Below the pieces are notes generated by a model that had not been told where the DNA came from, searched no databases, and saw nothing but the letters and a program-made list of their open reading frames with translations. Shown here piece by piece: positions 21,711 through 49,251 of a stretch of DNA of 49,298 nucleotides (positions are counted from its first letter, which is position 1; the number at the start of each line of letters is the position of its first letter). Position numbers and translations under genes: made by a program. Source of the DNA: an uncultured Alphaproteobacteria bacterium (GTDB lineage Bacteria; Pseudomonadota; Alphaproteobacteria; RF32; CAG-239); the NCBI GenBank assembly GCA_944390355.1, contig CALXPT010000012.1:1-49298 (forward strand), read 5' to 3'.

Positions 21711-22385
21711 GTAACCCACCGGCTTAGCCGGTGGTTCTTCATAAGCGGGTGTAACCCTAATGGTGCCAGCGAACGCCTAAAGGGCGCATGACGGTCTGAC
21801 GGGGCGAATGTTACTTGCTACCCGTAAACGGGTCAAAATCCATAGTTAATTGACTTTGCTCTGCGTCTTCTTTAAGTTGATTTCGTATATACTCAGTAAT
21901 TTTTTGAGTATTCTTCCCTGTGGTATCAACATAGTACCCTCGACACCAAAATTCCCTGTTGCGATATCGAAATTTTGCATTTCCCCACCGTTCATATATC
22001 GAGAGACTGCTTTTACCTTTGAGATAGCCCATTATTGAGCTTACCGAAAACTTAGGTGGAATCTCCAGTAACATATGAACGTGATCTGTACATACTTCCG
22101 CTTCTATTATTGTTACTCCTTTCCACCGACATAATTCTCTAAGAATTTGTCCTATTTCTAGACGACGTCCTCCGTAAAACGCCTTTCTTCTATACTTCGG
22201 TGCAAATACTACATGGTATTTACAATTCCATGTTGTGTGTGCTATTGTATGTGTGTTCATAAAAAAACTCCTTTGCTTTTTATTAGACAGTTGCCAGACC
22301 GTCACTTTATTTTAGCAAAGGAGTTTTTTATCTGTAAAGCTGTAAGCTCTTTGGAACTACCGGCCTAGCCAGTAGTTTTCTTGTT
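21711..22385 (-). mobile_element. IS200/IS605-family insertion sequence (tnpA only)
   Basis: A single HUH transposase gene is flanked by imperfect palindromes typical of this family: CCACCGGC-GCCGGTGG at 21716-21734 and CTACCGGC-GCCAGTAG at 22358-22376. GACGGTCTG (21790) and CAGACCGTC (22295) form an additional inverted pair just outside the gene. No tnpB is present. GTAAC at 21711 and GTTAC at 22381 mark approximate limits; exact ends need comparison with other copies. It lies immediately downstream of the rpoC terminator T-tract. Confidence 0.8.
21811..22260 (-). CDS. tnpA: IS200/IS605-family transposase TnpA
   Basis: This is the HUH-superfamily Y1 single-strand transposase. The 149-residue protein has WNCKYHVVFAPKYRRKAF near the N terminus, the catalytic HUH motif DHVHMLLEIPP (H60, H62), and RGYYVDTTG followed by the helix with the nucleophilic tyrosine in EYIRNQ (Y124). 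All catalytic residues are intact and the length is normal, so the element may be active. The start is the ATG at 22260 with AAAGGAG upstream; the 15 residues that could be added are not family-like. Confidence 0.93.
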   Translation of the reverse strand: MNTHTIAHTTWNCKYHVVFAPKYRRKAFYGGRRLEIGQILRELCRWKGVTIIEAEVCTDHVHMLLEIPPKFSVSSIMGYLKGKSSLSIYERWGNAKFRYRNREFWCRGYYVDTTGKNTQKITEYIRNQLKEDAEQSQLTMDFDPFTGSK

Positions 22386-43470: not shown

Positions 43471-44160
43471 ATGACGCCTAACACTAAAACGGAAAAAAAC
43501 GATACATTATGGACAGAAGCTATAGAAGCAGGAAAAGCCTTTGATTTATTTCCCAAAGAAGATTATAAGTTTACGGAGGACTATTATTTTAATGATGAGT
43601 CTACAGAAGATACAGACGATATTATTGATACTTGCCGAGGTTTTATCAAAGAGAACCACGCTAAAGAACTTAACTCACTATCAGCTGAACAACAAGATAA
43701 TGTTTTAGTAATGGCTACATGGCTATATGAAACAACCGGAAACCTTCATAGCCTTGACGCATTAGAACGGATGAGCGAACAAAATTTCAACAATAAAAAA
43801 ACACCCAAAGGCTCACTCGAAAAAATATACCAAGAAGACCAAGAATTTCAAAAATCTCTAACGTATGGAGGAGACGCACTAGAAGGAAAAGCAAAATGGT
43901 TAAATGTTTTGCGTAACCACCCTCTAAAAAAAGAATTGTTTAGTTTTGTTTATGATTATATCAATTCTCGTGAAGCTAATGCTAAATATATAAACCCTAT
44001 TTCAGAACCTAATTTTGATAAAAAACTTGCAGAAAAAACCGAAACAAGGCTTGAAAAATATGCCAATTTAGAAATTACGAAACAGAAAGCTTCATCAAAC
44101 ACAAAAAACACAATGCTTTCTCCTCAATTAATGACTAAAATAATGGGAAAAACAAGATAA
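43471..44160 (+). CDS. Hypothetical soluble protein, family not recognised
   Basis: The 229-residue protein is rich in Glu, Asp, Lys and Asn with no signal or membrane helix; it looks mostly helical. It starts MTPNTKTEKNDTLWTEAIEA, with an acidic stretch (NDESTEDTDDIIDTCRGFI) near residues 40-58, and a C-terminal segment of lysine- and serine-rich helix. AAGGAG precedes the ATG, a good promoter lies upstream and a strong terminator follows, so it is monocistronic. Base composition is lower in G+C than the core genes. The effector-like size and composition are only suggestive. Confidence 0.7.
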   Translation: MTPNTKTEKNDTLWTEAIEAGKAFDLFPKEDYKFTEDYYFNDESTEDTDDIIDTCRGFIKENHAKELNSLSAEQQDNVLVMATWLYETTGNLHSLDALERMSEQNFNNKKTPKGSLEKIYQEDQEFQKSLTYGGDALEGKAKWLNVLRNHPLKKELFSFVYDYINSREANAKYINPISEPNFDKKLAEKTETRLEKYANLEITKQKASSNTKNTMLSPQLMTKIMGKTR

Positions 44161-44180: not shown

Positions 44181-44213
44181 CCTCGAAGAACACATATTCT
44201 TCGAGGCTTTTTA
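44181..44213 (+). terminator. Terminator after the 43471 gene
   Basis: CCTCGAAGAA and TTCTTCGAGG form a perfect ten-pair stem with a six-base loop, then CTTTTTAT. Confidence 0.85.
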
Positions 44214-44248
44214 TATATCCCCAAACATATATCCCCAAACAAGCAACA

Positions 44249-44285: not shown

Positions 44286-44289
44286 ATAT

Positions 44290-44577
44290 CGACCTGAACA
44301 AACGGCTCTAGAAAACCATTCCTCCCTTAAAAATCTCGGATAATGGAATTTATAGAGTTGTTTGAAAGGCGAAAGTACGCAGCGTACATAGAAGTACGTG
44401 AGGACACTTTCGACCTGAACAAACGGCTCTAGAAAACCATTCCGCACTTAAAAATCTCGGATAATGGAATTTATAGAGTTGTTTGAAAGGCGAAAGTACC
44501 ACAGCCTACATAGTAGTAGGTGAGGACACTTTCGACCTGAACAAACGGCTCTAGAAAGCCATTAGACGAGATTTTTC
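44290..44577. repeat. Tandem ~121-base repeats forming long rod-like hairpins
   Basis: Two full units start with CGACCTGAACAAACGGCTC at 44290 and 44411, and a third partial unit at 44533; the periods are 121 and 122. Within a unit, short helices nest outward from a small loop: CGTAC/GTACG, CGAAAGT/ACTTTCG, GTTTG/CAAAC, TAGAG/CTCTA and AATGG/CCATT. They are separated by internal loops of two to seven bases. In the second unit the inner helix is CCTAC/GTAGG, a compensatory change, and an outer AAAAATCTCG/CGAGATTTTT helix extends the rod to 44450-44576. A related element is at 49105-49251. Confidence 0.85.
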
Positions 44578-45171
44578 TGGGTTGAGTTTTTCAAACTCCT
44601 CCCCCCTCATCACTAACGACGCATAAACATTGGGCAACTTATCAGGAGTAGAACGCTGAGGAAAATGATCAAACGTCACATGATCCCGATATTGCGGATA
44701 GCCATCGTTTTCAAGTTCGCGCCACCAACAGTCATGAAAAGATTCAAAACCAAAATCATCGGACATAGAGGTAAAAGCGCTAGAAATCAATGTCGCATGA
44801 TATTGAGGATAATGCGTTTTTGCCCATTCTTGGATTAAAAAAATACTTTCGCGCAATCCGGCATCATGAGCGATAGGTTCTAAGAAAGCGATATTGATAA
44901 AAGGCTTGTTAAAATGAAACCTATCAAAAAACTCATCATCAAGAAAAATAGATTCAGCAATCGGGTCATCTCTATGAAGAAGAGCCGCCACAGCAACCGC
45001 ATCATCAAAACACGAGCATTTCAAATCTTTATCAACGAAAAGATATCTTCTGAAATTAGCTTTTTGAGCCTCTGCCGTTTTTTTGGCAAACACCTCTTCT
45101 ACCGCCGCTAAAGCCTGTTCTTTAGATAAGCGATGTAACGTAATAATTTTTTCAAATTCTCTAACACACAT
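44551..45171 (-). CDS. Hypothetical protein whose 3' end lies in the repeat array
   Basis: The 206-residue soluble protein starts at the ATG at 45171 after an AT-rich leader ending TTTATTATG without Shine-Dalgarno; residues that could be added upstream include an unlikely hydrophobic run. It opens MCVREFEKIITLHRLSKEQA and is rich in His, Phe and Asp (CSCFDDAVAVAALLHRDDPI; ESFHDCWWRELENDGYPQYR). The last nine residues (EKSRLMAF and stop) are encoded by the outer arm of the structured repeat, so the reading frame and the repeat overlap. The family is not recognised. Confidence 0.65.
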   Translation of the reverse strand: MCVREFEKIITLHRLSKEQALAAVEEVFAKKTAEAQKANFRRYLFVDKDLKCSCFDDAVAVAALLHRDDPIAESIFLDDEFFDRFHFNKPFINIAFLEPIAHDAGLRESIFLIQEWAKTHYPQYHATLISSAFTSMSDDFGFESFHDCWWRELENDGYPQYRDHVTFDHFPQRSTPDKLPNVYASLVMRGEEFEKLNPEKSRLMAF

Positions 45172-45317
45172 AATAAACAAATTTAATAGATTAATAATAA
45201 GTTTTCTGCCTAGCTGATAGCAGAAATCCCGCATAAAGTCAAGTTCAAAGGAAGACCCCGCCAACAAAACACACAAAAAAATCGCCATGTAGCGTTTCGG
45301 CCGCACAGCGAATAAAA

Positions 45318-45560
45318 TCAATCAATATGCGAAGGAGGGATAATCCGAGGTCTGCTTTCAAACTCTTTAACATAAATTTCATATTTCAATTTATGAAACC
45401 AACCTTCTTCCCATTCCTTAATTTGAGCTTTTACCAGCTCCATATCAGTCATTTTCTTTGCCTTGCGGATAAAATAATATTTTATACACCATACAATCAA
45501 GGCATAGAACACGGCGATAATAAAAACTGCCCAAACAGCAGCAAAAATATAAATCTTCAT
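45318..45560 (-). CDS. Small single-pass membrane protein
   Basis: The 80-residue product has an N-terminal helix at about residues 5-28 (IFAAVWAVFIIAVFYALIVW), then a basic cluster YYFIRKAKK and a charged cytoplasmic-type tail (KAQIKEWEEGWFHKLKYEIY), ending in PRIIPPSHID. No ribosome binding site is seen: the leader is ATAATTTTGTATG. It lies 146 bases upstream of the preceding gene on the same strand. The family is not recognised, and the small size leaves some doubt about coding. Confidence 0.55.
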   Translation of the reverse strand: MKIYIFAAVWAVFIIAVFYALIVWCIKYYFIRKAKKMTDMELVKAQIKEWEEGWFHKLKYEIYVKEFESRPRIIPPSHID

Positions 45561-46452: not shown

Positions 46453-46461
46453 TATACCCCC

Positions 46462-46490
46462 AAAGAGCCGCCCATTCGGACGGCTCTTTT
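46462..46490. terminator. Terminator, copy 1 of the tRNA-Trp-type hairpin
   Basis: AAGAGCCG and CGGCTCTT enclose CCCATTCGGA. The same hairpin sequence recurs at 46899 and at the true tRNA-Trp terminator (48905). On the plus strand it ends the S51 peptidase gene. Confidence 0.85.
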
Positions 46491-46495
46491 GTTGT

Positions 46496-46505
46496 TGGCA
46501 GGGGC
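46496..46505. repeat. tRNA-Trp 3'-end fragment, copy 1
   Basis: TGGCAGGGGC equals the complement of the last ten bases of tRNA-Trp including CCA, and follows the same terminator at a similar distance as in the true gene. It continues into the perfect palindrome GGGGCGTCAAGACGCCCC and then ACGGACTACTATC, also found after copy 2. Confidence 0.7.
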
Positions 46506-46543
46506 GTCAAGACGCCCCACGGACTACTATCAACACAAAATCA

Positions 46544-46851: not shown

Positions 46852-46898
46852 GAATGTCAGTATTTATATTGATAATTCATCGAACCCAAAAGCTCTAA

Positions 46899-46928
46899 AA
46901 AAAAGCCGCCCATTCGGACGGCTCTTTT
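46899..46928. terminator. Terminator, copy 2 of the tRNA-Trp-type hairpin
   Basis: AGCCG and CGGCT enclose CCCATTCGGA, flanked by A8 on the left and TTTT on the right. It ends the 46618 gene. Confidence 0.8.
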
Positions 46929-46933
46929 GTTGC

Positions 46934-46942
46934 TGGCAGGGG
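46934..46942. repeat. tRNA-Trp 3'-end fragment, copy 2
   Basis: TGGCAGGGG follows the hairpin directly. Further on come ACGGACTACTATC and AAAATCATT, as after copy 1, so the module borders are homologous while the bases between (ATATAGGATAAT) differ. Confidence 0.65.
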
Positions 46943-47065
46943 ATATAGGATAATATACGGACTACTATCTTATAAAAATCATTGCCATTTTATGAAAGCT
47001 CAACATAATATATGTTGAAAAACTTCACCTAAAACAAATCTCAATAAGCGACAAATAGAAAAAAA

Positions 47066-48904: not shown

Positions 48905-48933
48905 AAAAAAGCCGCCCATTCGGACGGCTCTTT
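48905..48933 (-). terminator. Terminator of tRNA-Trp
   Basis: On the minus strand, seven bases after the encoded CCA, AAAGAGCCG pairs with CGGCTTTTTT around the loop TCCGAATGGG. This is the parent of the hairpins at 46462 and 46899. Confidence 0.85.
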
Positions 48934-48939
48934 GGTTAT

Positions 48940-49015
48940 TGGCAGGGGCAGAAGGATTCGAACCCTCGACACTCGGTTTTGGAGACCGATGCTCTACCAA
49001 CTGAGCTATACCCCT
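48940..49015 (-). tRNA. tRNA-Trp (anticodon CCA)
   Basis: The 76-base gene reads AGGGGTATAGCTC at the 5' end, GGTCTCCAAAACC as the anticodon arm (anticodon CCA), GGGTTCGAATCC as the T arm, and ends TGCCCCTG plus encoded CCA. The acceptor stem AGGGGTA/TGCCCCT pairs fully with one G-T. It decodes tryptophan. In many bacteria this gene lies just before secE; here six kilobases separate them. Its 3' end is repeated three times downstream. Confidence 0.97.
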
Positions 49016-49104: not shown

Positions 49105-49251
49105 ACGAGCTTTACAAAAAGGTTGGAGAACGAGGCAAATAATAAGATTTCAGGGGGACGACACCGGAGCGTACAAAGAAGTACGTGAGGATGTCGTCAC
49201 CCCGCAAAATCTGTATTAGTCGCCCGTTATACAAGATAAACAAAAGCTCGT
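49105..49251. repeat. Long rod-like hairpin related to the 44.3 kb array
   Basis: Nested helices CGTAC/GTACG, ACGACA/TGTCGT, GGGG/CCCC, AGATTT/AAATCT and an outermost ACGAGCTTT/AAAGCTCGT are separated by small internal loops. The core AGAAGTACGTGAGGA is shared with the tandem array although the surrounding helices differ in sequence. AAATAATAAGATTT inside the element (49137) is nearly repeated at 49262 (GAATAATAAGATTT), so another unit may continue beyond the window. Confidence 0.75.

Follow-up and report, generated by a model that had tools for sequence, protein, structure and literature searches.

A common hairpin tip suggests that many bacterial palindromic repeats, including ERIC and RPE1, are one kind of mobile DNA

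Two described repeats stand closest to the element reported here, an imperfect palindrome that forms a short array in a 49,298-nucleotide (nt) stretch of DNA (the window) from an uncultured alphaproteobacterium (contig CALXPT010000012.1) and recurs in the gut alphaproteobacterial family to which this bacterium belongs; we call it the gut element. RPE1 (TIGR01045) is likewise a multi-copy palindrome of 100-150 nt, with the hairpin tip CCGCAGCGTAC-N6-GTACGTGAGGA, but its arm sequences differ from those of the gut element. Whereas RPE1 is confined to Rickettsia and frequently lies in frame inside proteins, gut-family copies are almost all intergenic, and the tip is found in other phyla as well. 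ERIC (also IRU or RU-1) is a 127-nt palindrome of enterobacteria, similar in kind to the gut element; its tip, GGAGCTTAC-ATAA-GTAAGTGACT, has a four-base loop and GA facing GA below it, where the gut element has GNA facing GA. Integron attC sites and the VCR arrays keep their structure despite sequence change, occur as arrays of ~120 nt units and carry extrahelical bases; most gut units, however, have no cassettes between them, and no GTTRRRY core was seen in them. REP/BIME elements (GTAG- or CGTC-tagged) are also interspersed intergenic palindromes, but they are 20-40 nt long and bear a tetranucleotide tag, neither of which was seen in the gut element; RAYT has been linked to the GTAG-tagged kind of REP (PMC3733652). 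How ERIC and RPE move is a long-standing question, and movement by transposases is, according to a review, without experimental support (PMC2229807).

Our comparison suggests that many palindromic repeats regarded as unrelated are one kind of mobile DNA, because a conserved hairpin tip is common to ERIC, RPE1 and uncatalogued repeats of at least three phyla. For the array in the window, we think it likely that its units belong to a mobile palindrome of the ERIC/RPE kind, one that is interspersed and non-autonomous, with a DNA hairpin as the relevant structure. The kind itself is already known; the gut family and the tip model are uncatalogued. No Rfam family was matched by the gut element or its sampled relatives at gathering or permissive thresholds, and no paper linking ERIC with RPE1, or dealing with the tip motif, was found in the openly accessible literature, subscription papers lying outside the search.

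The array, whose span we correct from 44290-44577 to 44289-44578, comprises a truncated unit and two tandem copies of a palindrome of ~121-129 nt, with direct repeats at a spacing of 121/122 (44289-44378 with 44410-44499, and 44380-44441 with 44502-44563; other coordinates are in the table). An initial annotation, made from the letters of the window alone, had described rod-like tandem repeats with a compensatory two-sided change between them. Both observations hold: unit 2 folds as a single rod, as does the further copy at 49115-49243, and the tip changes from GCGTAC/GTACGT to GCCTAC/GTAGGT. Unit 1 lacks one base next to its tip, and its fold is less complete than that of unit 2, the only unit to close the full outer stem. 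The TGAGGA that had been read as a kept internal loop is indeed conserved, but it is not one loop, since its GA is unpaired, its GG pairs with an upstream CC and its last A is bulged.

The tip pattern, allowing up to three mismatches, was found at 25 places in this genome, against none for a reversed control; it was present in the same family and absent from the same-class genomes searched. From 53 copies of the gut family only, we built a covariance model (R1) for the tip domain of 56 nt; it finds about 45 copies in this genome and more in its relatives, as the initial annotation had proposed to look for. Copies occur in 24 of 30 family genomes and in all 16 genera, with single species being without them, which excludes a recent duplication confined to one strain. 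Copy number ranges from 0 to 56 across the 30 genomes and is patchy between relatives, and copies are solitary or follow one another in tandem, with at most seven units to an array.

In 32 gap-free, full-length copies of 129 nt from this family, two-sided changes are seen at 35 of the 49 pairs. Paired cells make up 91.1% of the total and fall to 37-41% (about 38%) when the partner is slid; shuffling lowers the double-changed cells from 271 to 84 and the covariation score from 0.473 to 0.160. All of these figures are upper views, since the pairing scheme was derived from one of the copies and the shuffles are blind to kinship; the size of the effect is nevertheless beyond doubt. Selection on structure had been proposed from the array alone; that the fold is kept while the stems vary in sequence is strongly confirmed by these homologues. 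The tip is nearly invariant, with the consensus CC-GNA-G[CT]NTAC-loop-GTAN[GA]T-GA-GG, and the conserved part consists of its unpaired boxes, GNA facing GA below the tip, together with one invariant G.U at the tip base. In a cross-phylum alignment of matches the covariation persists.

Outside the family, the exact tip was found in Rickettsia, a termite Clostridiales, Nitrospirota and others, some single matches being expected by chance. R1, trained on the gut family alone to lessen circularity, and with whole-genome matches counted to E 1, gave 55 matches in R. rhipicephali, 111 in a second Rickettsia, 128 in a termite Clostridiales Family XIII bacterium and 89 in one Nitrospirota genome; it gave 6 in a second family of this order, 2 each in Manganitrophus and Serratia, and none in a 4.3 Mb control genome of the same class. 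A broader model (R2), built from 72 cross-phylum matches with no ERIC in training, was positive in 107 of 398 Pseudomonadota genomes (E 1e-3), 24 of 118 Nitrospirota genomes and 13 of 299 genomes of the Clostridiales phylum (both at E 1e-4). Whole elements in other phyla are rods of 130-180 nt, many of which carry a CAAGGC box in one arm and AACG in the other, at similar distances in several phyla. The AAGGCG/AACGC boxes of ERIC are common to the Nitrospirota and Bacillota members, whereas the gut family is without the AAGGCG box.

Four sampled Rickettsia copies are RPE1 by TIGR01045 (E 5e-12 to 1.6e-23, in a scan of the Rickettsia matches only). When 40 kb of E. coli were searched, an ERIC copy ranked first with R2 (E 8e-4, next 1.5) and again with a further model, R3, that also had no ERIC in training (E 0.0076, next 0.24); R1 alone gave ERIC an E of 0.032. 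Similarity to the 127-bp ERIC consensus at the nucleotide level was absent over the full length, the likeness being limited to the tip; as a query, this consensus retrieved 127-bp matches, 90-95% identical, from most genomes of E. coli. ERIC is therefore likely to belong with the gut-family and RPE1 elements. The array had been judged unlike any REP, ERIC, CRISPR or terminator layout, and this stands for REP, for terminators and for CRISPR, whose short identical repeats with unique spacers are not seen in the array; for ERIC it needs revision, since the tip motif is weakly common to both.

Copies are placed non-randomly with respect to genes. In the gut family, an opposite-strand open reading frame (ORF) has its stop codon 20-80 nt past the 3' end of the core at 34 of 54 clusters, and the mirror arrangement is seen at only 1, where random intergenic placement would give 5.8 and 3.9. 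Unrelated genomes, mostly Pseudomonadota, show the antisense 3'-end placement in 11 of 22 cases against 3 of 22 mirrored; in samples from Rickettsia, Nitrospirota and Bacillota the excess is weak. The array follows the typical arrangement, with an ORF (44551-45321) ending in unit 2. An intragenic case like that of RPE was also seen, two copies lying within a 338-aa ORF of genome G018 (L033:846-1862, minus strand). Like the Rickettsia RPEs, the gut element is found in tmRNA genes: seven units fill the 853-nt spacer of the split (permuted) tmRNA gene in this genome, and elements occupy this spacer in five or more genomes of the genus. Four congeners have spacers of 379, 282, 230 and 173 nt; the spacer is loaded in G008 too, and is nearly empty (7-16 nt) in three further congeners; the tmRNA of a member of another family in the order has a 168-nt insert with the tip AGCTTAG/CTAAGT. 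Since RPE have also been reported within the tmRNA, and the RNase P RNA, of Rickettsia (PMC2229807), the split tmRNA spacer is a tolerated site that recurs.

The elements are gained and lost quickly. At one orthologous site genome G000 has one unit more than G001; in the unit next to it the outer arms agree between the two, but the inner hairpin does not. The sites of two closer relatives differ by whole units, and a comparison of G005 with G010 over 54 aligned kb gave no clean empty site. Recombination between units explains the mosaics and the mismatched tips. The gut element is thus small and multi-copy, has no enzyme gene of its own and is present or absent at orthologous sites, all of which are features of the ERIC/RPE kind. 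A reverse transcriptase was considered as mobiliser and rejected, since none is found in this genome despite its ~45 copies, although many congeners have one; a Y1 transposase fared no better, Y1_Tnp being missing from 8 of 11 genomes of the genus, among them several with copies of the element. With Y1 transposases lacking in most bearing genomes of the genus and reverse transcriptase in this one, mobility calls for either a host factor that is universal or an enzyme not yet recognised. Derivation of the outer stem from a terminator already present at the target was also considered; at one site the stem belongs to the gained unit.

We propose that recognition would involve a folded DNA strand, hairpin or cruciform, bearing the tip; a factor supplied in trans may copy the element into tolerant sites near gene 3' ends, and homologous recombination would afterwards build arrays and exchange inner modules. 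On this view a single superfamily would have RPE1, ERIC and the repeats of Nitrospirota and Bacillota among its branches. In its full form, with ERIC, RPE1 and the uncatalogued repeats of Pseudomonadota, Nitrospirota and Bacillota (probably also Acidobacteriota) as one ancient superfamily of DNA-hairpin parasites, whose common tip is recognised by a factor, host or mobile, that is widely conserved, and which are copied antisense beside gene 3' ends, we hold this proposal to be about as probable as its negation. If the tip is common to ERIC, RPE and elements in about a quarter of the sampled Pseudomonadota, the factor could be sought by cross-phylum co-occurrence and by pull-down with one hairpin, and several separately named repeats would reduce to one structural definition with a searchable model.

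The conserved fold could instead be that of a structured RNA in 3' untranslated regions, kept for a role as terminator, stabiliser or RNase target, and the initial annotation had left the choice between RNA and single-stranded DNA undecided. Copies do lie at gene 3' ends, their outer stems have the form A-tract/stem/T-tract, the GNA/GA loop and one G.U are conserved, and ERIC is reported to change mRNA decay in Yersinia (PMC2229807). However, the adjoining genes are antisense to the core strand, so that their transcripts carry the complement, in which the invariant G.U becomes A.C, and a copy number of 0-56 inside one family also speaks against such a role. The scarcity of G.U narrows the choice further. 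RNA helices usually evolve through G.U intermediates, but G.U makes up 0.8% of consensus pairs here, with just 11 among some 1,400 paired cells once the invariant one is set aside, and 2.5% of pairs in predicted folds; the tRNAs of related genomes reach 11.7%, and other controls 10-13%. Pairing that is almost purely Watson-Crick favours a DNA-level hairpin, though it does not prove one; because G.U steps are nearly absent, the pairing is seemingly maintained in the DNA itself or rewritten in a single step. We regard the RNA explanation as unlikely. Rewriting in one step could also be purely mutational, by arm-to-arm template switching within a quasi-palindrome whose structure is not selected, and this would fit both the rarity of G.U intermediates and two-sided changes that far outnumber one-sided ones. 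Such switching should erase mismatched loops, yet the GNA/GA loop and the bulges are kept across phyla, and the half-converted tip GCCTAC/GTACGT in the C17 array resembles recombination between units; we give this explanation a rather smaller chance than the RNA one.

Whether the groups share descent is a separate matter. ERIC, RPE1 and the gut element may have converged on a stable tip hairpin to which a conserved host protein binds, being the same kind without common ancestry; the arms beyond the tip are unrelated between the gut family and RPE1, and the common motif is about 25 nt. The tip has many fixed positions, including the loop and the G.U, while rod architecture and size are alike, the outer boxes are common to Nitrospirota, Bacillota and ERIC-like elements, and both the gut family and the Rickettsia RPEs occupy tmRNA genes. 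Convergence is a minority prospect, albeit a substantial one, and common descent has an even to fairly good chance. A REP-type element mobilised by a Y1 (RAYT/IS200) transposase would accord with the one IS200-type gene in the window, but it is largely refuted by the distribution of Y1_Tnp given above; the GTAG tag is missing too, and we consider it very improbable. Several points weigh against our preferred reading of a mobile DNA hairpin common to these groups: the shuffle controls take no account of kinship among copies; covariance-model E-values are rough and the ORF calls simple; support for ERIC is moderate, given its R1 and R3 values; the tip is short, so that convergence is conceivable; template-switch repair of quasi-palindromes could likewise yield the G.U scarcity; and neither a transposition event nor an enzyme was identified, nor a target-site duplication at the compared sites, which were too diverged or T-rich to show one.

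Table. Features of the array, its surroundings and related loci (G, C and L numbers are our handles for genomes, contigs and loci; other positions are those of the window)
Feature	Position	Strand	Basis or remark
Truncated third unit, 3' arm only, left end of array	44289-44320	+	direct-repeat comparison
Unit 1	44328-44441	+	R1 70.3 bits, E 5e-15 (copy in R1 training set); RNA z -7.2
Unit 1 tip domain	44365-44419	+	GCGTAC-ATAGAA-GTACGT
Unit 2, complete rod	44450-44578	+	R1 73.2 bits, E 8e-16 (copy in training set); DNA z -10.8, RNA z -9.7
Unit 2 tip domain	44486-44541	+	GCCTAC-ATAGTA-GTAGGT
Unit 2 outer stem	about 44450-44459 with 44567-44576	+	predicted fold
Further copy outside array	49115-49243	+	R1 74.5 bits, E 3e-16 (copy in training set); RNA z -8.0, DNA z -6.7
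Tip domain of further copy	49151-49206	+	
tRNA gene close to further copy	48943-49015	-	
5' half of fourth copy, cut by contig end	49226-49298	+	sequence comparison; whole at orthologous place in G001:C1, 45085 region
Opposite-strand ORF	44551-45321	-	ORF list; last codons and TAG stop within 3' arm of unit 2
Convergent ORF upstream of array	43471-44160	+	ORF list
Seven units in spacer of split (permuted) tmRNA gene	L009:4420-5270 = G000:C17:28419-29269		spacer 853 nt
~500-bp XRE repeat, examples	L014:5448-5690; L010:5750-5992; G001:C7 near 41000, 56700, 68300		

The ORF that ends in unit 2 probably has its true start at about 45170. Its homologue in G001 (G001:C1:42959-43214) is truncated, with a stop, and the array is missing there. 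The convergent ORF matched no confident protein family. Adjoining the array, at 44213-44241, is a perfect 14-bp tandem duplication, ATATATCCCCAAAC. A repeat of ~500 bp with an 80-aa XRE-type helix-turn-helix ORF lies in many copies between palindromic elements, of which it is possibly a passenger or helper. The IS200-type Y1 transposase gene of the window lies at 21877-22258 (minus strand); immediately upstream of it, at 22270-22377 (minus strand), Rfam STnc490 is matched at 65 bits, so that this Rfam family may describe an IS200 leader sequence. A terminator-like repeat, GCCGCCCATTCGGACGGCTCTTT..GGCAGGGG, is present in three near-identical copies in the window (46458-46530, 46896-46945 and 48905-48950).
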